DNA of 64,000 bases from Actinomycetes bacterium (lineage in GTDB: Bacteria; Actinomycetota; Acidimicrobiia; Acidimicrobiales; JAMCPL01). The translations under genes were made by a program, and so were the position numbers. The stretch spans positions 33,382 to 97,381 of the forward strand of contig JAJZWU010000004.1 of NCBI GenBank assembly GCA_021846515.1. Direction: 5' to 3'. This document shows positions 193-64,000 of the stretch, piece after piece. How positions within the stretch are numbered: position 1 is the stretch's first letter; each line of letters begins with the position of its first letter. The notes under the pieces were generated by a model. It worked only from the letters and a program-made list of their open reading frames with translations. It was not told the DNA's origin and ran no database searches.

Positions 193-1790
193 TGACTGTT
201 TATCTGGTAGGTGCAGGCCCTGGAGATCCAGGTCTTATCACGCGACGAGGATATGATTTGCTGACTCGTGCAGATGTATTGCTTTACGATCGATTGGTGG
301 ATAAGAGATTACTTTTAGCTGCACGAAAGGACGCTATATTGGTATACACGGGCAAACAGCCCGGCCACGCTGACCGCCAGCCGGATCTGAACAGGCAACT
401 AATTGATTACGGAAGCTCTTACGATATAGTTGTCCGTTTAAAGGGTGGTGACCCATTTGTATTCGGCAGGGGGGGAGAAGAGGTTCAAGCTCTGCAGGAA
501 GCGGGCATTAACGTAGAAGTCGTTCCCGGAGTAACTTCCGCCATAGGTGTACTTACCTCTGCGGGAATACCGGCAACCTATCGAAACATGGCAAGAAGCA
601 TTACGATCGTCACAGGACATACCGGTGCTGAACGGTCCAATAAAGAAAATCCACTGAAAAATATCGTAAGTCCATCCGGGATCGCTGAGTATGACGATAT
701 AGAAGTCCGTACAAAAAAGGGGAGGGAAGACGAAATAGACTGGGACTGCCTGGCAAGACTCAAGGGAACGCTGGTCATACTTATGGGAGTAGACAACCGA
801 GCAGAAATAGCATCTCGCCTTATGGCAGGAGGATTGCCAAGATCGACTCCGGTAGCAGCCGTAGAAAACGGTACTACAATAAACAGGAGAACCGTACATA
901 CGACCTTGGGTCACCTTGCAGATACCGAACTTAAAGCACCTGCCGTAATCGCAATTGGGCAGACGGCCGAGCTGGATCTAACCAATTATACCCAGCTTCC
1001 CCTAAGCGGGCTGTCTATAGTAAATACTAGAAGCCGCAACCAGGCAGAACCGCTCAGCTCTCTGCTGACAGATGCAGGCGCACAGGTAATAGAATTGCCT
1101 GCAATCACCTTCCATGCTCCAGACGACGGTGGTTTGGACCTAAGACGACATGCCGCTTGGCTAAATCGTTACGATTGGATCGTATTCACCTCTTCCAATG
1201 CGGTAGATGCATTCTTTGCATGCCTGCGGGATGCTCGTGATCTGGGCAATCTAAAGGTAGCCTCCGTAGGGACAACAACAGCAACTACGCTGCGTGAACA
1301 CAACATCGTAGCTGATATCATTCCAGACAGGGAACAGAGTACGGCAGGACTGCTGAATATCATGCCGGCTGCCGGCCCTATATCCGGGCGCAAGGAAACT
1401 GGAAGGGTACTCTATCCAAAAGCAGCCGATGCACCTCCTGCTCTGGCGGAGGGACTGAGGAAAAAGGGATGGTTGGTAGACGAAGTAATCGCATACAAGA
1501 CCGTTCCCACATCCAAAGATACCTCCAGGGAGAGTGGTGTCACACCTGAATTGATAGAAATGGCCAAACAGGCAGATGCTATAACTTTCACCTCGCCTTC
1601 TGCGGTACATGGATACCTGGAGTTGGTAGAGGATGGAAAAGTTCCATCCGTAGTCGCATGTATAGGCAACACAACAGCAAGTGCGGCCAGAAGTTCTGGA
1701 ATGGCAGTAGACGTAGTAGCAGAAGAGCAGAGTGCAGAGGGCATAGTAAGGGGACTCATAGATTTCAGAAATAGGCTGACGCGTAAGTGA
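192..1790 (+). CDS. cobA-hemD: Uroporphyrinogen-III C-methyltransferase / uroporphyrinogen-III synthase fusion
   Basis: A two-domain protein. Residues ~1-275 are a SUMT methyltransferase, with YLVGAGPGDPGLIT at the N-terminus, GGDPFVFGRGGEE, and PAVIAIGQ at the end. Residues ~285-530 are a HemD uroporphyrinogen-III synthase, starting SIVNTRSRNQAEPL and carrying WIVFTSSNAV. HemD closes and inverts ring D of hydroxymethylbilane; SUMT methylates C2 and C7 to precorrin-2 using SAM. The fused form is common in actinobacteria. The ORF track starts at TTG 189, but ATG 192 overlaps the hemC stop as TGATG and is preferred. Odd point: between VTGH and WDCLARLKGTLV the SUMT half carries a charged insert about 25 residues longer than usual. 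The product feeds both heme (next genes) and sirohaem/cobalamin. Confidence 0.93.
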   Translation: MTVYLVGAGPGDPGLITRRGYDLLTRADVLLYDRLVDKRLLLAARKDAILVYTGKQPGHADRQPDLNRQLIDYGSSYDIVVRLKGGDPFVFGRGGEEVQALQEAGINVEVVPGVTSAIGVLTSAGIPATYRNMARSITIVTGHTGAERSNKENPLKNIVSPSGIAEYDDIEVRTKKGREDEIDWDCLARLKGTLVILMGVDNRAEIASRLMAGGLPRSTPVAAVENGTTINRRTVHTTLGHLADTELKAPAVIAIGQTAELDLTNYTQLPLSGLSIVNTRSRNQAEPLSSLLTDAGAQVIELPAITFHAPDDGGLDLRRHAAWLNRYDWIVFTSSNAVDAFFACLRDARDLGNLKVASVGTTTATTLREHNIVADIIPDREQSTAGLLNIMPAAGPISGRKETGRVLYPKAADAPPALAEGLRKKGWLVDEVIAYKTVPTSKDTSRESGVTPELIEMAKQADAITFTSPSAVHGYLELVEDGKVPSVVACIGNTTASAARSSGMAVDVVAEEQSAEGIVRGLIDFRNRLTRK

Positions 1791-51094: not shown

Positions 51095-52222
51095 TTAATC
51101 CTTAATCCTAATTGGCATAAGATAGTATTTAAAGTTGCTATCATCAGGAGATGATATTAGGGCAGCATACTTACTATCATCAAACGATATTTCTATAGTA
51201 TCCCCATCCAATACTTCCACTCCGTCGATTACGAAATTGGGATTGAATCCTATGCTAAAGGATTCGTCCCCTTCATATGTTGCTTCTACCTGTTCGTTTG
51301 CTTTTCCCAGTGTAACAGAGTTTATATATAACTCTATTCCTATCTCTGACCAGGATAGGTTTACTTTTGATGTATCGTCTTTTGCCAGTATACTAATCCG
51401 CTTAAGAGAATCGATTAGGTGTGATTTACTTATAGTAATTTTATTCTTGTAGGTATGATTGGTTACCGACTCAAATGAAGGAAACTTTCCATTAACCAGC
51501 CTACTGTATATTTCTATGTTATCAAATATAAAGTTTATGTCTGTATCAGAAACGTTTATAGATAGTTTGTCTTCACCGCTACTGTCGTTATTGGATGAAC
51601 CAATTAGTCTAGCCACATCAGTCAATACTTTTGATGGAATTAGGATTTCGCTATCCAGAATTGAAGTGGTGTCTACTCCGGACATTCGTGCAAATGAAAG
51701 TCTATAGGAATCGGTAGATGTAAATTGCAATTCGTCTGTTAGTGCCTTCATGTGAATGCTTGTCAGTATTGGCCTTGTATCATCTTTAGACGATGCTTTC
51801 AGTATTTGGCGTGTCAGGTTAACAAATGTATTTTTTGGCAATTCAATAGGGTTACCCGTAGGAAATACTATGGGAGGAAATTCATTGATATCCATAGTTC
51901 TAAGTTCAAACTGCATGTTCTTTTCCTTAACAAATAACATACTGTCTACAAGCGAAATTTCTATTGCACCAGGGGGCATAGCTGCTACTATGTCTGCCAG
52001 TAATCTAGATGAAACTACACATGCACCGTTTTCTGAAGACTGTACCCGTACTGAACACCTGGTTGCTGAATCCAAATCGGTGGTAAGTAGATTTAACACG
52101 TTATCCTCCATGGTAATTCGTACAAGGCCGGGTAGTTGGCTGAATTGAGAACGTGTACCACCCTGTCTGGATACCTTCTTCATAGCATCAGCTAAAATAG
52201 ACTGTTCGGCTATTAAATTCAT
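51095..52222 (-). CDS. dnaN: DNA polymerase III sliding clamp (beta subunit)
   Basis: A 375-residue three-domain ring clamp. N-terminus FDS-free start MNLIAEQSILADAMKKVSRQ; TTDLDSATRCSVRV, then RPILTSIHMKALTDELQFTSTDSYRL in the middle domain, and SDDSNFKYYLMPIRI at the C-terminus, the last corresponding to the ..YLIMPVRI end typical of clamps. It lies directly downstream of dnaA with the presumed origin in the gap. Confidence 0.95.
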   Translation of the reverse strand: MNLIAEQSILADAMKKVSRQGGTRSQFSQLPGLVRITMEDNVLNLLTTDLDSATRCSVRVQSSENGACVVSSRLLADIVAAMPPGAIEISLVDSMLFVKEKNMQFELRTMDINEFPPIVFPTGNPIELPKNTFVNLTRQILKASSKDDTRPILTSIHMKALTDELQFTSTDSYRLSFARMSGVDTTSILDSEILIPSKVLTDVARLIGSSNNDSSGEDKLSINVSDTDINFIFDNIEIYSRLVNGKFPSFESVTNHTYKNKITISKSHLIDSLKRISILAKDDTSKVNLSWSEIGIELYINSVTLGKANEQVEATYEGDESFSIGFNPNFVIDGVEVLDGDTIEISFDDSKYAALISSPDDSNFKYYLMPIRIKD

Positions 52223-52447
52223 ATTGTGTATATTCTCCTAAGTAATCTATATTTATATATTAGTAGTAGTAGTAGTAGGTGTGAATTGTGCATTCTTTAA
52301 CGTATTACCTGGTAATTACAATACTTTCACTTTCTCAACCAAGTGTACTGATTGTGGAAAACTATCAGCTTTAGTAATTACACCTTGATCATATGTGTAT
52401 ATACACCATATTATACATAGTAATATCCACAGGTTTACCACCATATT
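52223..52447. other. oriC: Candidate replication origin (dnaN-dnaA gap)
   Basis: 225 bp, AT-rich. An AT stretch (52247-52260) is followed by TAG repeated six times (52261-52278), then TGTGAATTG. Further on are near-match DnaA boxes: TGTGGAAAA (52353-52361), TTATACATA (52411-52419) and ATATCCACA (52423-52431). The order AT-rich / TAG triplets / DnaA boxes is that of the bacterial basal unwinding system. The flanking gene strands also diverge around this region. Confidence 0.65.
52261..52278 (+). repeat. (TAG)6 DnaA-trio-like tract
   Basis: Six perfect TAG triplets. Read 3'-5' this is repeated GAT, the DnaA-trio that binds a DnaA filament on single-stranded DNA. Confidence 0.6.
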
Positions 52448-53872
52448 TTAACTGTACTCTTTTATCATTTTAGTTAACATCATAATTTGATTGTATAGTT
52501 CCCGATCATTATTCATATCGTTGGTTATTTTTTCTACGGCATGTATTACAGTGGTATGGTCGCGATCACCAAAATGGCGTGCGATTGCCGGATAAGAGTA
52601 ATCAGTGAGTTCTCTTATGAGATACATAGCCAGCTGCCTGGCGCGTACAAGTGGACGATTTCGTGCTGGACCGGATAAATCTGAAGAGCTGTAACCCAAT
52701 TGTGCTGAGACTATATACTTGATTTTTTCTGGAGTTATTATTTGAGTAGCGGATGTAAATATATCGGTCAGTGTCGATTTGGCCAACTCTATATCAAGCG
52801 TTTTGTTGGTAAGTCGTGCATAAGCAGTTACGCGTGTCAGAGCACCTTCCAGTTCACGTATATTCGTGGTTATATGGGTAGCTATAAACTCGTATACATC
52901 TTGTGGTACCGGTATTGTCAAGTTGTCAAGTTGTGATTTGTTTTGCAAAATGGCTATTCTGGTTTCCAGCTCCGGAGGTTGTACGTCTGTTATTAAACCA
53001 GACATAAACCTACTGCGTAAACGATGCTCCAGGGTAGACAGGGAACTTGGTGGTTTGTCAGAGGTAAATACCAATTGCTTTGAAGCGCCGTATAGGTCGG
53101 CAAACGTATAAAAGAACTCCTCCTGTAACTGTTCCTTACCTCCAAGAAATTGAACATCGTCTACCAGAAGAACGTCGCACTCACGATAACGTTTTTTGAA
53201 AAAAATCTGAGTGTTGTTTCTTATTGCTTCGACAAATTCATTCAAGAATTGTTCTGTTGATACATATCGTATTATACTATTAGTTGTGCTGTGTATGTAG
53301 TTTCCTATTGCGTGTAAGAGGTGTGTTTTACCAAGTCCAGTACCCCCGTGAATTAGTAGTGGGTTGTACGACCTGGCTGGTGATTCAGCTACTGCCATCG
53401 CTGCTGCATGGGCAAATCTATTGGAAGAGCCTATTACAAAATTGTCAAACGTATAACGAGGGTCAAGTTCGTTATTGTCTCGAGATACAGCTATATGGTC
53501 TTGGTAATTATTTTGAATGTCCTGAGTTTCACGTCCCTCATGCTCCCCTGTTTGGATATACTGCAATTCATCGTACTGATTTCCGTTGTGTTGCCTCACC
53601 AGAAGCTGTATTTCAGGAGTACTTCCAAGGGTTTCCTCAACGGCTTTATGTAGTAACGGTAAAAACGCGGATTCTATTTTTGATTTAACAATTCCGCTTG
53701 GCAATGTCAGGATTACGCGTGATGAAGATATATTATCGCATTTGATATTTGCCAACCAGGTTTTCCAGACAGCATCAGAAACCATTGTACGTATGGTCTG
53801 TGTACAAAGTTTCCACAGCTCATCTTGATCACCCAACTCGGATAACTTGGTGCTTGTGTTGATGGTATCCAC
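52448..53872 (-). CDS. dnaA: Chromosomal replication initiator DnaA
   Basis: A 474-residue AAA+ initiator. Domain I ~1-90, a short Asn/Gln/Glu-rich domain II, then YTFDNFVIGSSNRFAHAAAMAV opening domain III. Walker A is IHGGTGLGKTHLLHAIGNY, Walker B is VLLVDDVQFLGGK. The domain IV DNA-binding signature is GDRDHTTVIHAVEKI. GTG start at 53872; the box TGTGGATAC (minus strand of 53865-53873) overlaps that start codon, suggesting autoregulation. Confidence 0.98.
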   Translation of the reverse strand: MDTINTSTKLSELGDQDELWKLCTQTIRTMVSDAVWKTWLANIKCDNISSSRVILTLPSGIVKSKIESAFLPLLHKAVEETLGSTPEIQLLVRQHNGNQYDELQYIQTGEHEGRETQDIQNNYQDHIAVSRDNNELDPRYTFDNFVIGSSNRFAHAAAMAVAESPARSYNPLLIHGGTGLGKTHLLHAIGNYIHSTTNSIIRYVSTEQFLNEFVEAIRNNTQIFFKKRYRECDVLLVDDVQFLGGKEQLQEEFFYTFADLYGASKQLVFTSDKPPSSLSTLEHRLRSRFMSGLITDVQPPELETRIAILQNKSQLDNLTIPVPQDVYEFIATHITTNIRELEGALTRVTAYARLTNKTLDIELAKSTLTDIFTSATQIITPEKIKYIVSAQLGYSSSDLSGPARNRPLVRARQLAMYLIRELTDYSYPAIARHFGDRDHTTVIHAVEKITNDMNNDRELYNQIMMLTKMIKEYS

Positions 53873-53895
53873 AGCTTTTCAACTCTTGTGGAAAA
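53865..53895 (-). promoter_or_regulatory. DnaA-box-like pair at the dnaA start
   Basis: GTATCCACA (53865-53873) and TGTGGAAAA (53887-53895) each differ by one base from TTATCCACA or its complement. They flank the GTG start of dnaA. Confidence 0.5.
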
Positions 53896-54258
53896 CGTAC
53901 TTTGGTATTCCCAAAACCACCCTAAACATGTCAAACCATGACACAAAATCGACACCCTTGTATGTATCGTAGAAACGTCTGAAAATATTAATATTCACAT
54001 GTTGGAAGTTACACCACCTGAGACCGACTTGCTAGCGGATCGTTAAAATCACCGTGTAACTGGCAAAATACCATGCTGTCGTTTATCTTGGATAACGTTC
54101 TATGGACGGGCAAGAACAAAAACCCGTACTGCCCGCGATGGGTGTTTATTTCTGGTATAGTGAAACAGTGTGCCGAGAGCATACCGGGTGCTATAATTTT
54201 GGCTCCCGTTGGTACTGTAAGAAGTGGTATATATTTTAGATTAAAGGCAAGACATAGT
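53873..54258. other. Gap between dnaA and rpmH
   Basis: About 386 bp. It holds the two DnaA-box-like sites next to dnaA, an AT-rich patch (AATATTAATATT, near 53980), and TATAAT at 54192-54197 as a possible rpmH -10 without a clear -35. The ORF-track extension from 54073 is only the open frame upstream of rpmH. No other gene is seen. Confidence 0.5.
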
Positions 54259-54405
54259 ATGAAAAGAACTTATCAGCCAAAGACACGCCGCAGGTTGCGA
54301 AAGCATGGATTTAGACACAGGATGGCAACAAAGGCCGGAAGACGCATTCTTCAAAGCAGAAGACTGAAGGCCAGAAAAAAGTTAACGGTCCAACGAGCAG
54401 CGTAA
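54259..54405 (+). CDS. rpmH: 50S ribosomal protein bL34
   Basis: A 48-residue basic protein: [19 protein letters not shown] and [20 protein letters not shown] are the invariant bL34 segments. ATG 54259 is the family start; the longer track ORF from 54073 is spurious. It is first of the rpmH-rnpA-yidD-yidC-jag-rsmG set. Confidence 0.97.
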
Positions 54406-54479
54406 AAATTGGTGCAGTAAGCGACCAAGCTACCTTCAGACAGCTTCTGCGCGGCGCCAGAGCTATAAAGCCAGGAGTA

Positions 54480-54782
54480 ATGTCGGTAAAATTTGCGCCA
54501 ACAGAAGAGCCCTTTACCGGTGTGCGTGTTGCGTTTTCTGTACCGGCACGAATTGGTTGCGCTGTAGTAAGGAACCGTATAAAGAGGAGAATACGAGCTG
54601 TTATACGTCAAAACGGTGATCATATAGTCAGTGGCGCTTATTTGATAAGGGTTCACGATAGATTGGATGGGTTAAATCACAGTGAACTATCTGCTTTGGT
54701 CAATCAGTTAATGCGTGAGTCCAGCATAAAACCAAGATGTTCCGTAGGCAAAAATAGAAATGAATTACTTTTAGGTAAATAA
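54480..54782 (+). CDS. rnpA: Ribonuclease P protein component
   Basis: Binds RNase P RNA and assists 5' maturation of tRNAs. VVRNRIKRRIRAVIRQ is the hallmark RNR motif helix, and VAFSVPARIGCAVVRN is the strand before it. The first ATG is 54480 (100 residues), but the same frame upstream reads SDQATFRQLLRGARAIKPG, which matches the normal N-terminal helix of RnpA. No ATG, GTG or TTG lies in frame between the rpmH stop and 54480, so a non-canonical start (e.g. ATT 54408) may be used. Confidence 0.9.
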   Translation: MSVKFAPTEEPFTGVRVAFSVPARIGCAVVRNRIKRRIRAVIRQNGDHIVSGAYLIRVHDRLDGLNHSELSALVNQLMRESSIKPRCSVGKNRNELLLGK

Positions 54783-54803
54783 AAAGTTAGTCGTGAATAA
54801 ACA

Positions 54804-55109
54804 ATGAAATTATTAAAAAATAAATCTGAATATAATAGTTCAATAAGTGTAATAAAAAAAGAACAGCTACCACTAACTACTAGTATTGGACTGTTGCCGA
54901 TAAAGGTATATAGAATTTTACGTGCGGGTAGGCCATCGCCGTGTAGGTATATTCCGAGCTGCTCGGAGTATACCTTACAGGCTATTACTAGATTTGGGGT
55001 GTTGCGTGGCTGGTGGATGGGGGTTTTACGTGTTACAAAATGCAGACCGGGTGGTGGGTTTGGCTTTGATCCCGTGCCCGATAAAGATTCGATAACCGAT
55101 AAAGATTAA
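54804..55109 (+). CDS. yidD: Membrane protein insertion efficiency factor YidD
   Basis: YidD/Haemolytic-domain protein, 101 residues. YRILRAGRPSPCRYIPSCSE followed by YTLQAITRFGVLRG, and RVTKCRPGGGFGFDPVP, are diagnostic, with the conserved cysteines present. An N-terminal extension of ~30 residues is unlike most YidDs. It lies between rnpA and yidC as in most bacteria. Confidence 0.93.
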   Translation: MKLLKNKSEYNSSISVIKKEQLPLTTSIGLLPIKVYRILRAGRPSPCRYIPSCSEYTLQAITRFGVLRGWWMGVLRVTKCRPGGGFGFDPVPDKDSITDKD

Positions 55110-55121
55110 GGAAATGTTGGC

Positions 55122-56336
55122 GTGATAATTGCAAGTACACTAGGGCAAATATTTCAACCAATTTTTGAACTATTTGCATATACAATAGCATTTTTTTATG
55201 CAATAATACCTAATTACGCAATAGCTATAACACTATTAACTATTGCGGTAATGGTAATAACTGCTCCACTAACCATCAAGGGAACCGTATCCATGATGGC
55301 CATGCAAAGATTTGCTCCCGAGATGAAGAAGATTCAACAAAAATACAAGGGAGACAAGGTAAAGCAAAACGAAGAGCTCATGGCGTTGTACAAGAAGCAT
55401 AACATCAGTCCCATGGGGGGATGCCTACCGCTACTATTGCAATTACCAGTATTTTTTATACTTTATGGGGTAATTGACGGACTTATTAATACAGTACGCA
55501 ACAAACACCATCAGATTGTTGCAGAACCCAGATATATAGGACACAGTACGTCTCTTTACCATCATCTGATAGTTACCCCCGGTAGGATCATGTCGTTCGG
55601 TATTAATTTGGCCAGTAAGGCACTTGCCCATCATTCATCGGTTGTGGCATCACTTCCGTTTTGGCTGCTTGTTGCTGCTGCTATAGCTGCACAGTACTAC
55701 CAGATGCGGCAAATGAATAGATGGAACCCAGATGCCGCCAAAGCAAATCCACAGGCCCAAATGATGCAAAAGTATATGCCGGTAATTATGGCAATAATAT
55801 ATATCAATATTCCTGCCGGAGTAAATGTCTATTTTATTATATCCAGTTTGTGTCGTATAGGCCTGCAAGAGGGCATTTATAGGTTTGGCTGGGGAATGAA
55901 AGCCCTGAATGCCGAGCAGTCAAAATCGGAATCGGACAATCCTGATAAAGTGGTTAATGGTACGGTAAAACCAAAACGACCATCTATTATGGAGCGCATG
56001 CTTGAAGCCCAACAGAGAGCCATGACCAATTCTAAACAACTGGAAGAGAAGAAACAAGCCATGTTGACCGAAGCCAGAGATGTTAGGAGTGACGACGGTA
56101 TAGTTCCAAAAAACAATAACAGTGCAGATAAAAATACGCTCAGAGATACAGAAACGGGCACTCAGGATACAAACGGGCACTCAGGAAAAAACGGAGCGCC
56201 AGACAGAGAGTCAGGTTCATCTTACGGTGCTCCTCAATCGGACAAACGTATAAAAAATATCCCTACCGATCAATCGTTGGAACGGAAAAACGTCCATCCA
56301 CGTTCCAGGGATAAACGTACCAGAAAACCAAGGTAA
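55122..56336 (+). CDS. yidC: Membrane protein insertase YidC
   Basis: YidC/Oxa1-type insertase of 404 residues that places proteins in the cytoplasmic membrane. An N-terminal helix leads to NYAIAITLLTIAVMVITAPLTIKGTVSM. The cytosolic hairpin follows (FAPEMKKIQQKYKGDKVKQN), then the second helix MGGCLPLLLQLPVFFILYGVI, and later helices. Gram-positive layout without the large periplasmic domain. The C-terminal ~150 residues are a charged, ribosome-binding-like tail. GTG start. Confidence 0.95.
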   Translation: MIIASTLGQIFQPIFELFAYTIAFFYAIIPNYAIAITLLTIAVMVITAPLTIKGTVSMMAMQRFAPEMKKIQQKYKGDKVKQNEELMALYKKHNISPMGGCLPLLLQLPVFFILYGVIDGLINTVRNKHHQIVAEPRYIGHSTSLYHHLIVTPGRIMSFGINLASKALAHHSSVVASLPFWLLVAAAIAAQYYQMRQMNRWNPDAAKANPQAQMMQKYMPVIMAIIYINIPAGVNVYFIISSLCRIGLQEGIYRFGWGMKALNAEQSKSESDNPDKVVNGTVKPKRPSIMERMLEAQQRAMTNSKQLEEKKQAMLTEARDVRSDDGIVPKNNNSADKNTLRDTETGTQDTNGHSGKNGAPDRESGSSYGAPQSDKRIKNIPTDQSLERKNVHPRSRDKRTRKPR

Positions 56337-56544
56337 AATGGTGCGGGTTAAACAAAACGATAATCGTGTGTGTTGCAAAGTAGGCAACATGCCAGCTTTA
56401 TGTTCTGAAGTTTCACGTTCTGAGTCACAAACTGGCTATTCATTTCAGAAAGTGCATGCACCCACAAGGCGACGTCTATTACCCAATTATATGGTAGCAG
56501 TGCAAGCTTATTGGTTGATAGGATAACATAGGAGAAGAGTAGTG

Positions 56545-57606
56545 ATGGATTGGATTGAAATTAGCGCAAACAACCTAGAAAAGGCCAAAATAGACGCATC
56601 GGTAAGCCTTGGGGTAGCGGTAGGGGACATTGAAGTTGTTGTATTGGAAAACAGGGAGGGATTATTAAATCGAATTTTACATCACGGTGTAAGAATTCGC
56701 GCAAGAATAAAACCGCTTGAAGCCGCCCCTACACGTCGTAAGAGCCGTGGAACAAAGCGGAGTTTACCCGACAAGACCACCAAAGAAAGTAATGGCAGGG
56801 AAAGTACCCGTCGGTCCCCGAAACAAGACACCTCAACTAAAGCCAAAGAACCTGCCGGGGAAAATAAGTCAAAAAACAAGTCTAGAAATGCAAACTACAA
56901 AGAACGAAGCTCACCACAGCGCAAAGCTGGAAACTCTACCACCAACGTAAAGGCCATCGTTAAAGAGAACACGAAAAAGGAAGACATAATGAACAGTAAT
57001 ACCAATGAAAATCAGACCCCAGAAAATAATATTGCAGAGACCAAAGAACAAGCGGAACAAATCAGCAATTTTTTGTTTGGGCTATGCAACGTAATGGGAC
57101 TGAACGCACACTCACGAATTACAACAGAAGGAGAGATGTACGCCGTAGAGCTGCTAGGCGATAACCTCGGTGTACTTATAGGCCGACACGGAGTAGTTTT
57201 TAATGCAATTCAAGACATTTCACGTACAGTAGCTCGTACCAAAAGCAATCAACCCCCTACCGACGTTACTGTAGATATTGCAAATTACAGAAACAGGCGA
57301 ACCACTGCCTTAACCGAGTTCGTTACCAAACAGGCTCAGCGTGTGCTGGAAACCCAGAAACAAGTTGTTCTTGAGCGCATGGACTCAGCGGAACGAAAGA
57401 TAGTACATGAGGTGATTAAAGGGATAGAAGGGGTATCTACCAGGTCAGAGGGGGTTGAGCCCAATAGGGTAGTAATCATAGTTGTTGATAACACGGGCAA
57501 CGACAACCATGAAGGTAGTGGTGGAGATCCTCATGGTGATAACTATCGGGATGCAGGGGATAAAATAGACAATAGCAATATCGAAAGCAGTGACACTACT
57601 AGCTAA
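56545..57606 (+). CDS. jag: Jag/KhpB RNA-binding protein
   Basis: Jag-N domain first (WIEISANNLEKAKIDASVSL to RIRARIKP), then a long Lys/Ser/Asn-rich linker of ~110 residues. A KH domain follows (GDNLGVLIGRHGVVFNAIQD) and then an R3H domain (PMNS-like ERKIVHEVIKGIEGVSTRSEG). It binds RNA and is linked to cell division and wall synthesis in firmicutes. The tail is Asp/Asn/Gly-rich. ATG 56545 after GGAGAAG is preferred to the GTG at 56542. The 200-bp gap before it holds only a doubtful 62-codon frame. Confidence 0.9.
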   Translation: MDWIEISANNLEKAKIDASVSLGVAVGDIEVVVLENREGLLNRILHHGVRIRARIKPLEAAPTRRKSRGTKRSLPDKTTKESNGRESTRRSPKQDTSTKAKEPAGENKSKNKSRNANYKERSSPQRKAGNSTTNVKAIVKENTKKEDIMNSNTNENQTPENNIAETKEQAEQISNFLFGLCNVMGLNAHSRITTEGEMYAVELLGDNLGVLIGRHGVVFNAIQDISRTVARTKSNQPPTDVTVDIANYRNRRTTALTEFVTKQAQRVLETQKQVVLERMDSAERKIVHEVIKGIEGVSTRSEGVEPNRVVIIVVDNTGNDNHEGSGGDPHGDNYRDAGDKIDNSNIESSDTTS

Positions 57607-57700
57607 AAACGTATGCCTTAGCCACACACCAGTAATGACATTGGTCATAAATAGTCATGTCGGTCATCTTTAGTAACTTCACGTTATTATAAATCGCATA

Positions 57701-58438
57701 ATGCACAAAGTTAAATTATCTCTTCCAGATGAGATAGAGAGCTGGATTGACAGAAATCCATCCCTTCCCAAGATGCTACAGCTAAGCAAGACACGGGGGT
57801 TTATTGGCAAGTCTACTGATATTCGTGATGCCATTCGCCACTCAATAGGCTACGCTGTAGTTATCGACTATATTCTTGGTTTTGCGAACGGGACAAGCCG
57901 TCATGGGTGCAACATAATAGATGTAGGAAGTGGAGGTGGCCTACCTGGCATTCCATTGGCGTACTACCTGGCCCGCGAGCATGGTGGCGAGCATGGTGGT
58001 ATGGAGATTACCCTTTTAGATGCGAGCTTAAAAAAAACCAACTTTCTGAAATACGTATTAAATATAGCTTCAAACGAAGAGCATATATTACATAACACAC
58101 TGATTGTGAGTGAGCGAGCAGAGCTATTTGGCCGAGAGCCGTCACGTAGGAACTCATTTCGATTTGCTACAGCACGTAGCCTGGCCAGACCGGCAACTAC
58201 AGTAGAACTTTGCTCCCCACTCCTACAGCCCGGAGGCCATCTTATCGTTTCGTTGGAGCAGCAGAGCGTATCGTCATTGCAAGCATGGTCCGACGATGGT
58301 CTTGATAAGTTTGGTATGGTGAAAATTGATGAAGTAATTGTAGGAGGGTACGGGTATATTGTCATCGCCCAAATATCGCCGTGCCCCAATGACTATCCAA
58401 GAAGGACGGGTATTCCGTCAAAAAAACCAGCATGGTAG
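57701..58438 (+). CDS. rsmG: 16S rRNA (guanine-527-N7) methyltransferase
   Basis: SAM methyltransferase of 245 residues (GidB). NIIDVGSGGGLPGIPLAYYLA is the SAM loop, and FATARSLARPATTVELCSPLLQPGG is the family's RA-hairpin segment. The stop codon is directly adjacent to parS. Confidence 0.93.
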   Translation: MHKVKLSLPDEIESWIDRNPSLPKMLQLSKTRGFIGKSTDIRDAIRHSIGYAVVIDYILGFANGTSRHGCNIIDVGSGGGLPGIPLAYYLAREHGGEHGGMEITLLDASLKKTNFLKYVLNIASNEEHILHNTLIVSERAELFGREPSRRNSFRFATARSLARPATTVELCSPLLQPGGHLIVSLEQQSVSSLQAWSDDGLDKFGMVKIDEVIVGGYGYIVIAQISPCPNDYPRRTGIPSKKPAW

Positions 58439-58454
58439 TGTTTCACGTGAAACA
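58439..58454. promoter_or_regulatory. parS: parS centromere site
   Basis: TGTTTCACGTGAAACA is an exact match to the 16-bp universal parS palindrome bound by ParB. It lies between rsmG and parA. I saw no second perfect copy in the window. Confidence 0.95.
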
Positions 58455-58588
58455 TACTTGACTTTCTTGATTGACTGTAGCAGTATATACTTAAGGCAGT
58501 AGGTGCTAGAATATACGAATGTATCCAGTTCTGTCGACGTAGCTACTTTACCTTGACGGGCAGATCAGTGGAAGGATTTCAGTGAAAC

Positions 58589-59401
58589 ATGGAGACAATG
58601 GATATGCACTCAAATGATAATAAGCATATACATCACGATACCCGAATAATGGTAATTGCCAACCAAAAAGGCGGAGTTGGCAAAACCACGACAGCAGTTA
58701 ACCTCGGAGCTGCACTTGCTGAATTGGGTGTAAGGGTACTTGTAATTGATCTTGATCCACAGGGTAATGCAACTACCGGACTCGGTATAGATGCCAGGAC
58801 GTTTGATGTTTCAATATACGACGTAATGGTTCGTGATGCCAAAATAGAGGACTGCATAGAGCCCACCGGACTAAAGAATCTTTTTATTGTACCATCCACG
58901 ATCAATCTAGCGGGAGCCGAAATTGAATTGGTTCCTGTAATGAGCAGAGAGTTAAGACTTAAAAGGGCGATAGAGTCAGTTACGGATGATTTCGATTACG
59001 TTTTGATTGACTGTCCACCATCGTTGGGTCTGTTAACGTTAAACGGACTTGCAGCAGCTAGAGAAATAGTGGTTCCTATACAGTGCGAGTACTATGCACT
59101 GGAAGGATTGGGACAGCTATTGAAAAATGTACAGTTGGTAAAAACAAATCTTAACTCAGAGCTTGAAATAGGGGCAATTATACTAACCATGTATGATTCG
59201 AGGACCAAACTTTCTGATGAAGTAGTCAAAGAGGTAAGGAAACATTTTGCCGACAAAGTATGTAAGACCATGGTTCCCCGTACAGTGCGCATATCTGAAG
59301 CGCCATCGTTTGGTCAGCCTGTAATTGTCTTTGATCCATTATCAAAAGGTTCTTTGGCATATCGAGAATTAGCAAAGGAGATTCATTATGGCGAGGCGTA
59401 G
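58589..59401 (+). CDS. parA: Chromosome partitioning ATPase ParA
   Basis: ParA/Soj, 270 residues. The deviant Walker A is NQKGGVGKTTTAVNLGAAL, switch I is LVIDLDPQGNATTGLG, and switch II is YVLIDCPPSLGLLTLNGL. It moves ParB-parS complexes apart using nucleoid-bound ATP dimers. The N-terminal 20 residues are His/Asp/Asn-rich. ATG 58589 follows GGAAGGA. parB starts inside its last 14 bp. Confidence 0.96.
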   Translation: METMDMHSNDNKHIHHDTRIMVIANQKGGVGKTTTAVNLGAALAELGVRVLVIDLDPQGNATTGLGIDARTFDVSIYDVMVRDAKIEDCIEPTGLKNLFIVPSTINLAGAEIELVPVMSRELRLKRAIESVTDDFDYVLIDCPPSLGLLTLNGLAAAREIVVPIQCEYYALEGLGQLLKNVQLVKTNLNSELEIGAIILTMYDSRTKLSDEVVKEVRKHFADKVCKTMVPRTVRISEAPSFGQPVIVFDPLSKGSLAYRELAKEIHYGEA

Positions 59402-60359
59402 CGGACTGGGTAAGGGACTTTCTGCTCTTATACCGGCAGAATCTGTCAATTATGGAAATGACATGCTTAAAGAAGTACCTATAGGAAATGTGCGCCCGAA
59501 CCAGTTACAACCCAGAAGCGTTTTCGACGAAGAGAAGATGTCGTCATTGGCTTCTTCGATTCAAGAAGTAGGTCTATTGCAACCGATTTTGGTCAGGCAA
59601 ATTGCACCGGAAGAATATGAGATAATTGCCGGTGAACGAAGATGGCGAGCAGCCAGAAGGGCCGGGTTGCAGACAATAACGGTAATCATTCATGAGGCTG
59701 ACGAGAATGCCAGTCTGGAAAAAGCACTTGTTGAAAATCTACACAGAGAAGACCTGAATGCGCTGGAAGAAGCTGCAGCTTTTCAGCAACTGATTGATGA
59801 TTTTGGCTATACTCATGATCAGGTAGCAAAAAGAGTTGGCAAAAGTAGATCGGTAGTGTCAAATACGCTGCGACTACTACAATTACCTGCAAATGTTCAG
59901 AGGGCATTGGCAGAGAATAAGATTACCACCGGTCATGCGAGAGCACTTTTGTCTACACCGGATAGAGAATTGCAAGAAAAACTGGTAGAGCGCATAGTTG
60001 CAGAAGAGCTCACAGTTAGAATGATCGAAGACACAATAAGAGATTACGCACAGAATCAGAATAATAACTCTATAGAAATAGACGAGCTTGGAAGTAAATT
60101 GACGGACAACGAAGATACGCGTGCGGTGTCTCCAGACACAGAATATATATCTTCAAAAGATAGGAGCAATCACGATCAAGATGATTTACCGTACAGGACC
60201 AAAGATGCTGGCGTACTGGAGCTGGAGCACCTACTTGGTGAATACCTGAACACAAGGGTAAGGGTAAATGTTACCGGTAAAAGAGGGAAGCTGGTTATAG
60301 AGTTTTCTAGTATTGAAGACCTGGAAAGAATATACAAATCGATGATTGTCCAGGAATAA
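59388..60359 (+). CDS. parB: Chromosome partitioning protein ParB
   Basis: CTP-dependent parS-binding clamp of 323 residues. NQLQPRSVFDEEKM and EYEIIAGERRWRAARRAGL belong to the ParB/Srx CTPase domain. VAKRVGKSRSVVSNTLRLLQ is the helix-turn-helix. The C-terminal dimer domain follows a linker rich in Asp/Ser. Overlaps parA by 14 bp. Confidence 0.96.
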   Translation: MARRSGLGKGLSALIPAESVNYGNDMLKEVPIGNVRPNQLQPRSVFDEEKMSSLASSIQEVGLLQPILVRQIAPEEYEIIAGERRWRAARRAGLQTITVIIHEADENASLEKALVENLHREDLNALEEAAAFQQLIDDFGYTHDQVAKRVGKSRSVVSNTLRLLQLPANVQRALAENKITTGHARALLSTPDRELQEKLVERIVAEELTVRMIEDTIRDYAQNQNNNSIEIDELGSKLTDNEDTRAVSPDTEYISSKDRSNHDQDDLPYRTKDAGVLELEHLLGEYLNTRVRVNVTGKRGKLVIEFSSIEDLERIYKSMIVQE

Positions 60360-60713
60360 GCCGGACACCTTGGTATGTAAGTATATAGTGGACGCTTACG
60401 CTAAAGAGGCTATACAGGTTTATGCACAGCATGTGGATAAACCTGTGGATAAACATAGAATCGACATACATACCGACCGTTAGTGGACCAGACGAATAAC
60501 TGGCGCTAGTGAACCTCCTCACCCTCACGGACGAGGCTTCTATCCCCATCCATTGGTCAGAGTTACCGGCAAACACTTCCATCACGCTACCACGGCCAAC
60601 GAGCCTAGCTCTTCCGAGCCGGTAGATGATTTGGCTTTAACCAGCTTGCTTGGTACAGTTTCCTAGCACCAGCCACCTGTTTTCTTTATTCTTGCTCATA
60701 TCAATATTATAAA
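60360..60713. other. Gap after parB with DnaA boxes
   Basis: About 350 bp. DnaA-box cluster at 60419-60452 (listed next). Around 60508-60545 the minus strand reads GAAGCCTCGTCCGTGAGGG then TGAGGAGGTTCAC, which resembles the end hairpin of IS200/IS605 elements; this would be an eroded end at best. No gene is supported; the 92-codon minus ORF here has no recognisable domain. Confidence 0.4.
60419..60452. promoter_or_regulatory. DnaA-box cluster downstream of parB
   Basis: TTATGCACA (60419-60427), then TGTGGATAA at 60432-60440 and again at 60444-60452. The last two are perfect DnaA boxes on the minus strand, 12 bp apart. They are better matches than those in the dnaA-dnaN gap. Confidence 0.7.
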
Positions 60714-61937
60714 TCCCATCTTCGGGACTTTTTGCAAAATCTCTAGTTTTCCTTAAGAAATAATTTACATATTACCAGTTCAGAGGTATTAGCATGTCTT
60801 AACTGAGGTACCCTTTTGGGGTACCTCATGGTATTGTCTAACCTATGTATGTACATGTATCCAAGTACAGAAACACAGCCAGGGTACGATTACTACAAAA
60901 GGTAAGGGTTGACGGCTCTGTAAAGACCGGGCTGGTAAAGCACATTGGCAATGGCAGCTTGATGGGTGCTACAGTGACATAGAAGGTGGACCGAATTATG
61001 GGGGCAAGCCAAAAAGACCACAGAAACGATCTTCCCCAGGTGGTATTGGGGCTGTGTGTTAACGAACTGGGCATGCCCTTGTCCTATCGCCTGTATCCCG
61101 GCAATACCTATGAAGGAACTACTTTGGGCGATGGCATTAAATACGCCAAGAATAAAGCCGGAGCACGTTCAATGACCGTTGTTGCTGATGCAGGCATGCT
61201 GTCCAAAAAGAACCTGGATATTATAAGAGACTCGGAGATGAAATTCATCGTAAGTGCCAGGATAAAGAATCTGAATGCCAACGTTACACGACAAATCACA
61301 GACCATGACTTTGTGGCAAACCCAATAATGGAGCTTGACTATAACGGTGATCGCCTCGTGATAGCCTACTCCAGGAAAAGAGCAGCAGCAGACAGAGCCA
61401 GGCGCAAAAAGTCAATCGCCAGGCTGGAAGGTTTAATAGCGTCCAATAGAGCTGTGAGGAAACACCAGTTTCTAAAGATACCGCTTAGGGGTAACCCTTC
61501 CATAGACGCTATGGCAGTTGAAAGGGCCAGCCAATTTGATGGCTTAAAGGGATATCTAACCAATGATTTTGAATTATCCCAGGATAAAATAATCGAGCAC
61601 TACAGCTACCTTCCCAATGTCGAGCAATCCTTTAGGATGTTCAAATCCGATTTACGGGTAAGGCCTATGTTCCACCAAGTTTCTCAAAGAATTGAGGCGC
61701 ATGTAGTTCTATGCATGGTCTGTCTTTGCCTGATGAGAATTCTTGAACAAAAGGTTAAGCCACTTGGCTATACCTACAAGCAGGCCTTGAGCATAATAAC
61801 GGATGCTCATAGCGTTCTGATAGGCAACACCAAGAAAACCTACCTCATTCCCCCTCTTCTAAGCAACGAGTTCAAGGCAATCCAACAATCTCTGGAAATC
61901 GGTGAGTGATTGGGGTACCTAATTCCCGAAGATGGGA
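60714..61937. mobile_element. Decayed IS1634-like insertion sequence
   Basis: Ends are a perfect 14-bp inverted repeat, TCCCATCTTCGGGA at 60714-60727 and its complement at 61924-61937. Inside is a damaged transposase gene. A hairpin TGAGGTACCC-TTTT-GGGGTACCTCA (about 60804-60828) precedes it and could block read-through. At 1.2 kb it is shorter than intact relatives, so it is probably immobile unless helped in trans. Confidence 0.65.
60845..61909 (+). pseudogene. IS1634/IS4-type transposase, internally deleted and stopped
   Basis: The frame from ATG 60845 starts like IS1634 transposases (KYRNTARVRLLQKVRVDGSV, then GLVKHIGNG). It meets TAG at 60980-60982 and then jumps to QVVLGLCVNELGMPLSYRLY, so roughly 100-150 residues containing the first catalytic Asp region are missing. 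The rest is well kept: VVADAGMLSKKN holds the second Asp, and HYSYLPNVEQSFRMFKSDLR the Glu region. The track ORF from GTG 60986 is the surviving C-terminal part. Confidence 0.78.
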
Positions 61938-62042
61938 GGTGGAAATGAGGGGTAAACGGTTACTTTGATAGCACAACACAGCTGATCCATGGTGGTATAT
62001 ATACTACAGGTAAAACAGCTTGGTATGGTTTTATTTTCCCCT

Positions 62043-62080
62043 GGTGCTCCAGATGGTAAAAGAGGGCATCATGGAGCACC
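62043..62080. repeat. Inverted repeat GGTGCTCCA/TGGAGCACC
   Basis: Nine-base arms at 62043-62051 and 62072-62080. No T-tract on either side, so a terminator is doubtful; it lies between the IS and the Rhs-linked genes. Confidence 0.5.
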
Positions 62081-62091
62081 TTGGAAACAGC

Positions 62092-62166
62092 TCAATATAA
62101 TAGGGATAATAGTCTCACTAATTCAGTAATCCCAGATATACGTGTATTAGTTGTTTGGGTCTTCAT
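62092..62166 (-). pseudogene. Eroded second Rhs-cassette start
   Basis: Directly after the membrane-protein gene the minus strand reads ATG AAG ACC CAA ACA ACT, giving MKTQTTNTRISGITELV and ending at TGA 62092-62094. The intact cassette at 63715 starts MNTQTTKYCL in the same position relative to its repeat. This is therefore the equivalent slot with its Rhs sequence lost. Confidence 0.45.
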
Positions 62167-62474
62167 TGGTTGTATCGCCTCTTGGTGAGTTATATCACTG
62201 TTGGTCTGATTCTGCTGGATGATCCTCTGGTTGAGTTTGTTCAGGTGGTAGTTGCTCTGAGTAAGAGGTAGGTGGTGGATCGCTACCTACTGCAGGTGGT
62301 GATTGATCGATGTTCGCGATAGGGTCATCTTGCTGCTGGGAGACATATGGTGGCTGGGGTTCTTGGTTTGCAGGTTCTGCTACTTGTTGTTGCAGCATAG
62401 GCATAGAGGGAGGTTCGTTGGATAGTATGCCTCTGTTTCTAAGTATCGTCTCTCTCATGGTATGTCCAGGCCAG
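62147..62474. repeat. Direct repeat copy 1 (3' end of membrane-protein gene)
   Basis: Near-identical to 63696-64000 on the same strand. It carries 24 extra bases (residues AVGSDPPP in the protein) and has TGA where copy 2 has CGA. Confidence 0.92.
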
Positions 62475-63178
62475 GGATTCATCTCTGCCTCGTGTATCTC
62501 CTGGGGGGTAGGTGGTGGATCTAGTGGGGTCTTTTCTTCTTCAGGTGTACGATTTTCCAGTTTTGCAGGAGCATAGTTAATAGTTTGAGTGGCTTCAACA
62601 AGAGAGCTACTCCCTGCAGGCTTGATTGACAGCTGCAGTAATCCCTTGACATAGGATGCCTGATTAGCTCCCAACGCGAAAGATGCCGACAATACCCTTT
62701 CTCCCACAGTCGTGATCTCGACCGGAGCAAACTCAGAGACGATCCATCTCTTTACAGCTTCCACAGCAGAGGCATCTTTAAGCGTTATCTTTATAACATT
62801 GTCCGGTTGTGGCTGTTGGATTCCCGGACCGCTTATCTCTGCACCCTGGCTAACTTCCAGTACTTGCAGTGGTACCGCAGGCGTCTCGCCGGAAGCGCTA
62901 TCGGTATGATGGCCTAAGTTGGGAAATGCCGTTGGCGGCAAACGATATATATGCCGTCGGTACCAATCCCGCAACACCAGAATAATGATGAAAGCTGTAA
63001 TAGCTGGAAAGCCAAGGACCCCACTTAGGAACCTGTCATGCAATCCACCATTCGGACCAGAACCTGACGCTGCAAGATAACCCATATAGGAAGACCAGAC
63101 AGCGAACGTTACTACAATAATAGCCAGTAGCGCTAATACAGTCAGAAAGACAACCTTTTTCCATCCAGACAGTGACAT
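62195..63178 (-). CDS. Two-helix membrane protein, candidate immunity/accessory protein of the Rhs cassette
   Basis: A 327-residue protein of no family I recognise. Two hydrophobic helices near the N-terminus (VVFLTVLALLAIIVVTFAVW and FPAITAFIIILVLRDW) enclose a short external loop. A folded cytosolic domain follows (DNVIKITLKDASAVEAVKRW to SYVKGLLQLSIKPAG), then a Pro/Gln-rich tail of ~110 residues. It starts 24 bp after the stop of the Rhs cassette with the hydrophobic tip. A membrane immunity protein is a reasonable inference from that position. The last third is duplicated upstream at 63696-64000. Confidence 0.6.
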   Translation of the reverse strand: MSLSGWKKVVFLTVLALLAIIVVTFAVWSSYMGYLAASGSGPNGGLHDRFLSGVLGFPAITAFIIILVLRDWYRRHIYRLPPTAFPNLGHHTDSASGETPAVPLQVLEVSQGAEISGPGIQQPQPDNVIKITLKDASAVEAVKRWIVSEFAPVEITTVGERVLSASFALGANQASYVKGLLQLSIKPAGSSSLVEATQTINYAPAKLENRTPEEEKTPLDPPPTPQEIHEAEMNPWPGHTMRETILRNRGILSNEPPSMPMLQQQVAEPANQEPQPPYVSQQQDDPIANIDQSPPAVGSDPPPTSYSEQLPPEQTQPEDHPAESDQQ

Positions 63179-63202
63179 GGCAAGTTATGTGTTCATGTAT
63201 AT

Positions 63203-63715
63203 CTAGCACGCATAGATTAGAGCAACAGCAGATGCGCCCACAACAGCCATAGACACAAAACTGAGCTCCATTGGTACTACTGCAGGAAATATCCCAAGTA
63301 CCCCAAGCTCGTCAGCAAACACGCCTAAATAAGCCAATAAAGGAGTGATGAAAATTGATTCGTTCCCTCCCAACACTCCATCTTCAAAATCGGTCAAGGC
63401 TGTCGATGAAGAGATGCACTGGCACTCTCCGGTGGGGTCGGTATTGGAGACGGGGTTGTCACCTGCATACTGGTAGGGCTGATGGGTCACGTTCACCAGG
63501 GGATCGACACTGATGAACTGTGCTGTAGCCGGATCATACCATCTCGCTCTTAGGTAGTAGAGCCCGGATGCTTTGTTCAGGTACTGTCCTGCAAAGTAAA
63601 AGGGATTTGCATTCAGTGCGCTGGAGATACAGGTGCTGGATGGTCTGGATTTTGATCTTACAGGTAGACTGCTGTCAGATCTACGCAAGCAGTATTTAGT
63701 TGTTTGGGTATTCAT
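63203..63715 (-). CDS. Orphan Rhs core/C-terminal cassette with hydrophobic tip
   Basis: The ORF holds the end of an Rhs core: YFAGQYLNKASGLYYLRARW, YDPATAQFISVDPL, and PYQYAGDNPVSNTDPTG, the standard boundary before a variable toxin tip. The tip (residues 97-170, counting from ATG 63715) is ECQCISSSTALTDFEDG and then strongly hydrophobic, e.g. ITPLLAYLGVFADELGVLGI. No nuclease or deaminase motif is seen; membrane or pore action is possible. The long Rhs N-terminus and most YD repeats are absent, so this is a cassette, not a complete secreted protein. The frame upstream of 63715 is out-of-frame repeat DNA. Confidence 0.68.
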   Translation of the reverse strand: MNTQTTKYCLRRSDSSLPVRSKSRPSSTCISSALNANPFYFAGQYLNKASGLYYLRARWYDPATAQFISVDPLVNVTHQPYQYAGDNPVSNTDPTGECQCISSSTALTDFEDGVLGGNESIFITPLLAYLGVFADELGVLGIFPAVVPMELSFVSMAVVGASAVALIYAC

Positions 63716-64000
63716 TGGTTGTATCGCCTCTTGGTGAATTATATCGCTGTTGGTCTGATTCTGCTGGATGATCCTCTGGTGGAGTTTGTTTAGGTGGTAG
63801 TTGATCTGAGTAAGAGGTAGGTGGTGATTGATCGGTGTTCGCGATAGGGTCATCTTGTTGCTGGGAGACATATGGTGGCTGGGGTTCTTGGTTTGCAGGT
63901 ACTGCTACTTGTTGTTGCAGCATAGGCATAGAGGGAGGTTCGTTGGATAGTATGCCTCTGTTTCTAAGTATCGTCTCTCTCATGGTATGTCCAGGCCAGG
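63696..64000 (-). CDS. Second copy of the membrane-protein gene, 3' end (partial)
   Basis: The frame is open from the window edge to 63696. It encodes the same tail as the 62195 gene (MRETILRNRGILSNEPPSM and PPYVSQQQDDPIAN) with eight residues missing. The TGA that ends copy 1 is CGA here, so it reads on through RYNSPRGDTTNEYPNN. Its stop overlaps the start of the Rhs cassette. The N-terminal part lies outside the window. Confidence 0.75.
   Translation of the reverse strand, partial: WPGHTMRETILRNRGILSNEPPSMPMLQQQVAVPANQEPQPPYVSQQQDDPIANTDQSPPTSYSDQLPPKQTPPEDHPAESDQQRYNSPRGDTTNEYPNN

Follow-up and report, generated by a model that had tools for sequence, protein, structure and literature searches.

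An orphan Rhs cassette of an acidimicrobial bacterium with a short hydrophobic tip and a candidate membrane immunity protein

Results

A displaced 3′ Rhs cassette lies at a contig end

We analysed a 64,000-nt stretch of DNA (the window) from an Actinomycetes bacterium of the order Acidimicrobiales and found at its end an orphan Rhs cassette, in which a short hydrophobic tip is followed by the gene of a two-helix membrane protein. Our reading, to which we assign a probability of roughly 60%, is that this is an exchangeable pair of a membrane-inserting toxin tip and a membrane immunity protein, like Tse5/Tsi5 or the CDI ionophores and their CdiI proteins. The end of the window is also the end of contig C8 (C8:97381) of a draft genome of 2.27 Mb in 77 contigs. 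Reading on the minus strand from the contig end, the order is copy B, the Rhs core stub, the tip, 24 nt and the copy A gene, and beyond copy A a repeated non-coding stretch of about 260 nt precedes a transposase-like gene on the opposite strand. The features are as follows.

63696..64000, minus strand: copy B, the 3′ part of a further tailed gene for a membrane protein, truncated where the contig stops
63713..63715, minus strand: putative start codon, the sole plausible ATG near the Rhs stub, with AAGAGG upstream
63428..63625, minus strand: Rhs core 3′ stub, SSALNANPFYFAGQYL...SNTDPTG, about 66 codons (TIGR03696)
63437..63505, minus strand: the two aspartates of the putative self-cleavage site, DPLV-X18-DPTG (Asp codons 63503-63505 and 63437-63439)
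63203..63427, minus strand: tip, a hydrophobic acidic peptide of 74 aa plus stop, ECQCISS...LIYAC, proposed membrane-inserting toxin
62195..63178, minus strand: copy A membrane protein, 327 aa, proposed cognate immunity protein
62954..63154, minus strand: two-helix membrane hairpin, the variable, cassette-specific part of copy A (hydropathy, AF2)
62195..62530, minus strand: constant C-terminal tail of copy A, TPLDPPPTPQEIHEAEMNPWPGHTMRETILRNRG plus a Pro/Gln-rich end
61937..62194, minus strand: non-coding DNA downstream of copy A, within a 594-nt block 94% identical to contig C22 of the same genome

Copy B repeats the 3′ block of copy A in tandem, and this block restarts upstream of the Rhs stub; the in-frame ATG at 63715 falls within the last codons of copy B, in a different frame. 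Positions 61937-62194 were counted as part of the repeated cassette because they lie inside the 594-nt block. An Rfam scan of window positions 60000-64000 gave no match, no relatives were identified among viral contigs, and plasmid records gave partial matches to the Rhs core region only, with no record covering 80% of the query.

Several features of the surroundings were also observed. The transposase-like gene that adjoins the cassette (window 60986-61909, plus strand; identified by eye) apparently lacks its N-terminal part. A small dispersed repeat is formed by a non-coding stretch of about 110 bp downstream of the tailed gene (window 61937-62046), which is also present at G000:C22 and, with 87% identity, at the unrelated site G000:C72:7163-7274; 44 bp of the adjoining DNA recur on C9. 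Window positions 51095-60359 carry dnaN, dnaA, YidC-like, jag-like, rsmG, parA and parB genes, identified by eye from translations. The Rhs cassette therefore sits beside the replication-origin region, with all of these genes within about 12 kb.

The core stub keeps the self-cleavage aspartates

The initial annotation had placed an Rhs core boundary at NTDPTG ahead of a 74-residue hydrophobic tip, and we confirmed this boundary. The core end ...DNPVSNTDPTG matched TIGR03696 with 70 bits (E=1.5e-19; cut-off 32.5 bits), and NTDPTG ends at position 63428, directly before the variable tip. A second core copy at the start of contig C22 is 91% identical in DNA and 89% identical across 63 residues, and alignment with it put the core/tip boundary at GECxCIS. 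Between the two copies dN was 0.029 and dS 0.31 (dN/dS about 0.09), and as judged from these substitution rates the core stub is under purifying selection.

The two aspartates are 22 residues apart in the core of the window, in that of C22 and in that of a sister species (G004). The first cleavage motif in the window reads DPLV, not DPxG, while the published Rhs self-cleavage motif is DPXG-X18-DPXG (PMC10684867). Because the Asp spacing equals that of the published motif, tip release is expected just after DPTG, and the core may well cleave itself at this point.

The Rhs gene in the window consists of the core stub of about 66 codons only, and no Rhs gene of full length, carrying YD/RHS repeats and an export signal, was found in the assembly of this genome. 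These missing features exclude a main rhs gene but not an orphan cassette, which by definition has none of them. The locus is thus no working Rhs gene, but an orphan (displaced) 3′ Rhs cassette, a point that the initial annotation had missed.

The lack of a full-length Rhs gene in the assembly would also suit a membrane complex of tip and membrane protein that acts inside the producer, either as a toxin-antitoxin pair or as locus-stabilising storage, and is not a delivered weapon. The possible ATG with AAGAGG upstream would allow the stub to be synthesised alone, and a Salmonella RHS element has been reported to act as a toxin-antitoxin module (PMC7043789). However, purifying selection on the core and the retained self-cleavage aspartates would be needless for a purely internal module, and we consider this explanation very improbable.

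The tip is a coding-like, base-free hydrophobic peptide

Of the 74 residues of the tip, ECQC...IYAC, eight are Asp or Glu and none is Lys, Arg or His; its mean hydropathy is 1.12, and direct reading shows that it contains neither Trp nor Arg. Equally hydrophobic, base-free and acidic windows of 74 residues are rare, with none among 15,328 in the other large reading frames of the window and 7 among 54,289 in the other loci compared. The tip frame has the codon usage of a gene (+0.14 bits/codon, on a scale where 5% of real-gene windows score under +0.075 bits/codon), and the other two frames of the strand score -0.31 and -0.37. This coding-like frame, together with a second cassette of like design in the genome, places the cassette design beyond chance. 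The codon usage speaks against a frame-shifted remnant, which the initial annotation had named as the alternative. The exact tip occurs in no relative among 397 genomes.

The absence of a known toxin motif also held, since neither the tip nor the hairpin of the membrane protein matched a family in Pfam, NCBIfam, PHROG, PADLOC or the PDB. The same five resources gave no homology of the tip to Tse5-CT or to another known membrane toxin, and a search of 397 genomes of the order returned only chance-level matches to hydrophobic stretches. AF2 run on the single sequence predicted three helices with low confidence (pLDDT 56, no alignment). The hydropathy and the predicted helices are compatible with membrane insertion, and the tip may insert in membranes and depolarise cells.

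The membrane protein combines a variable hairpin with a conserved tail

The ATG of copy A lies 24 nt past the tip stop codon, and no ribosome-binding site is evident for the gene in the window. Both this gap and the two membrane helices had been annotated correctly, but the protein also has a variable cytoplasmic middle and a conserved C-terminal tail. Hydropathy analysis located strong membrane segments at residues 9-27 and 51-69, and AF2 on the single sequence predicted hairpin helices at residues 5-38 and 46-77 (pLDDT about 58-82 per 10-residue block). The two helices are joined by a short loop, with K/R after helix 2, an arrangement compatible with both ends being cytoplasmic. In the model of the whole 327-aa protein (pLDDT 53, no alignment), the hairpin and two short tail helices are best predicted and the middle poorly. 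A Foldseek search of this mostly low-confidence model against the PDB gave nothing under E=0.1, and we therefore claim no fold for the protein. We considered residues about 120-205 as a known effector-associated alpha/beta domain and rejected this, as there was no Pfam match even at E=10. In its size and tail copy A is unlike the two-helix CdiI proteins, it matched no profile, and a search of 377 genomes gave no convincing relative of its hairpin or middle.

The tail carries a motif of about 33 residues, DPPPTPxExxxAxxNPWPGHTxxETIxRNR, that is common to the membrane proteins of all three cassettes described here and has no match in Pfam or NCBIfam. We observed this undescribed motif at window 62429-62530 (minus strand), at L007 about 868-981 (plus strand), at L035 5772-5885 (minus strand) and in L051, L052, G462:C108 and G462:C38, both at membrane-protein C-termini and in short soluble ORFs. 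The tail is present in three families of the order, in two of which no Rhs gene is nearby. Copies of the tail are much closer to each other at silent sites (dS about 0.02-0.08) than the core is (dS 0.31), which suggests a recent duplication or conversion of the 3′ block.

The distribution of the tail raises the question of whether copy A simply belongs to an order-specific tail-bearing family, for example of adaptors recruited via the NPWPGH tail, that stands beside Rhs stubs by chance. Without Rhs genes nearby, the tail is found on two-helix proteins with a large inter-helix loop (G393, G288 and G511), on a one-helix protein (G511) and on short soluble ORFs (G462). On the other hand, every tailed gene of the genus that is seen in full lies directly after a short hydrophobic tip or tip-like ORF, and the membrane half of these genes changes whenever the tip changes, so that a chance association appears unlikely. 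As the tail also occurs on Rhs-free proteins, it is no immunity domain as such, and the hairpin alone is cassette-specific. The initial annotation had named a wide occurrence of the protein without Rhs genes as grounds for refutation; such an occurrence applies to the tail, which is found in other families, but not to the hairpin, for which 377 genomes gave nothing convincing. We regard the hairpin as the candidate specificity part of a membrane protein that probably protects the producer of the tip.

Parallel cassettes differ in tip and hairpin between constant flanks

Contig C22, which begins inside the Rhs core, carries a second cassette with a different hydrophobic tip of 81 aa. Its membrane gene overlaps the tip stop (-4 nt) and encodes a different two-helix protein with the same tail as copy A, and the 594-nt block shared with the window comprises this tail and the downstream DNA. 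A third cassette was identified in the sister species (G004:C88), where a free-standing hydrophobic ORF of 61 aa in a coding-like frame is followed 20 nt on by a tailed membrane protein. The gaps between tip and membrane gene are thus 24 nt (window), -4 nt (C22) and 20 nt (G004). Tip and hairpin differ between the cassettes, and the core and tail flanks are constant, as is typical of a polymorphic toxin-immunity cassette. The pairing of a membrane-acting tip with a membrane immunity protein, first proposed as a coherent pair, is strengthened by this second pair in the same genome and the third in the sister species, with both parts varying together.

We further compared the variable parts with each other. 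The tips of C22 and G004 resemble each other more than shuffled sequences of preserved composition and hydropathy do (z=3.75, 0/1000), whereas no similarity was seen between those of the window and G004 (z about 0.4). Homology between the window and C22 tips is not claimed, since BLASTP gave E=2.5, shuffles gave z about 2 and the likeness lies mainly beside the core. Homology among the hairpins of the three cassettes was likewise rejected, as they score no better than hydropathy-preserving shuffles. No convincing relatives were found for the C22 tip and the C22 hairpin.

Rhs 3′ cassettes are numerous in the genus, with 16 core matches in three sister genomes. Most complete tips in the genus are 142-195 aa long and not hydrophobic, and of the open tips read that have an intact neighbour, the two of the present genome are the shortest and also the most hydrophobic. 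Two longer hydrophobic tips in G004 (C32 and C88) also precede membrane proteins. In addition, we noted that the sister species carry tandem Rhs 3′ cassettes with many unrelated tips, mostly at contig ends, several of the tips being hydrophobic with membrane neighbours and others Gly-rich; such tandem loci are L036 6920-10998 (minus strand), L035 838-3573 (minus strand), L039 and L042.

Many Rhs tips carry a hydrophobic pre-toxin segment right behind the core, and the window tip could be what is left of such a segment after the toxin domain was lost on displacement, in which case the peptide would be inert. In keeping with this, the cassette is an orphan stub and possibly decaying, in one G004 tip a hydrophobic stretch leads into a toxin-like part that is not hydrophobic, and stubs of 5-30 aa occur at other loci of the genus. 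Against such a truncation, two unrelated tips of the same genome have nearly equal short lengths and each abuts an intact membrane-protein gene, the tip frames are coding-like, and the short G004 tip is similarly complete. We consider a truncated remnant doubtful, if somewhat less so than a chance association with a tail-bearing family, and we retain the toxin-immunity cassette as the preferred reading.

Long Rhs genes cut by contig ends are present in G001 and G003, and they encode an N-terminal hydrophobic, signal-like segment, a DUF6531 plug and many RHS repeats. The N-terminal segment points to export probably by Sec rather than by T6SS, and extrapolating from these sister species, delivery in the present genome is probably by Sec as well.

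Discussion

Rhs tips that act on membranes and are paired with two-helix immunity proteins have been described before, and the window cassette resembles them in plan with no shared sequence. The statement of the initial annotation that such a tip is unlike most characterised ones is true, but its kind is represented by Tse5/Tsi5 and Tox-WTIP, with the CDI ionophores close to it. Tse5/Tsi5 of Pseudomonas aeruginosa, an Rhs pore-forming toxin and its membrane immunity protein (PMC9637101), resembles the window cassette in the Rhs shell with DPxG-X18/19-DPxG cleavage (PMC9637101, PMC10684867), in a C-terminal membrane-active tip without an enzyme motif and in an adjacent immunity gene with two predicted membrane helices (PMC9637101). 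However, Tse5-CT has 149 residues and is T6SS-delivered, whereas the window tip has 74 residues, no indicated T6SS route and no sequence similarity to any solved chain. The immunity candidate of the window differs from Tsi5 in its long cytoplasmic portion and its conserved tail.

The CDI ionophores of E. coli share with the proposed tip a hydrophobic helical toxin domain, which in their case dissipates the membrane potential, and their CdiI proteins are small polymorphic two-helix hairpins with both ends cytoplasmic (PMC11630599). They differ in being part of CdiA and not of Rhs; the tips described here do not include an entry domain of their own, their length seems insufficient for a five-helix bundle like the published one, and CdiI proteins have 72-100 residues (PMC11630599) compared with 327 in the window protein. 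Tox-WTIP (PMC3482391) is a short module of two membrane helices in Rhs proteins that is predicted to form pores, but its Wx[ST]IP and RxxR motifs are absent from the window tip, which has no Trp and no Arg.

For the arrangement of the locus, the closest likeness is the Salmonella orphan rhs-CT/rhsI, a displaced 3′ rhs fragment with its immunity gene that can re-fuse to the main rhs gene by recombination (PMC3967940). In contrast to the Salmonella orphans, the cassette described here has a constant immunity-gene 3′ end as well, which gives homology on both sides. The esaG/tipC arrays (PMC9484751) similarly have blocks of near-identity at immunity-gene 3′ ends that drive recombination between paralogues, but these belong to the T7SS, and the recombination takes place between immunity genes and not with tip and immunity gene as a unit. 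Tse5/Tsi5, the CDI ionophores with CdiI and the recombination from orphan to main Rhs gene are experimentally established (PMC9637101, PMC11630599, PMC3967940). On these precedents and that of esaG/tipC, we read the locus as a stored, exchangeable membrane-toxin/immunity cassette.

We propose the following mechanism. The full-length form, which is not in this assembly and is partly encoded by the sister species, would be an Rhs shell protein that begins with a signal-like segment and is presumably exported by Sec with the tip enclosed. Cut free after DPTG by the conserved aspartates, the hydrophobic, base-free peptide of 74 residues would enter the cytoplasmic membrane of a nearby cell, and that membrane would be depolarised. 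In the producer, the two-helix hairpin encoded 24 bp downstream would meet the tip within the membrane and so protect the cell, the immunity protein bearing the constant cytoplasmic tail. The cassettes are nearly identical to each other in the core stub and in the tail with the DNA behind it, so that homologous recombination could swap tip and hairpin as one unit, possibly into a full-length gene.

A further and rather doubtful extension of this proposal is that Rhs tips of about 60-80 aa that are base-poor, acidic and bracketed by cysteines form a distinct class. These tips would be soluble when deprotonated and insert when their acidic residues are protonated in an acid habitat of these bacteria, NPWPGH-tailed hairpins would neutralise them, and the double homology of core and tail would make each pair one exchangeable unit. 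Acid-triggered insertion is speculation from the base-free acidic composition and the presumed acid habitat of a close relative, which seems to fit the Fankou acid mine drainage sediment core (PMC7779479).

Most Rhs tips known to act on membranes come from T6SS effectors of Gram-negative bacteria. If our reading is true, this mechanism would reach further, to a tip with half the length of Tse5-CT from a Gram-positive lineage in which sister species have Rhs proteins that begin with a signal-like segment, and the tip would provide a very small model pore or ionophore. The combination of a variable hairpin with a tail that is used outside Rhs in the order would make the role of the tail testable, and the constant 3′ ends would do the same for the joint exchange of toxin and immunity.
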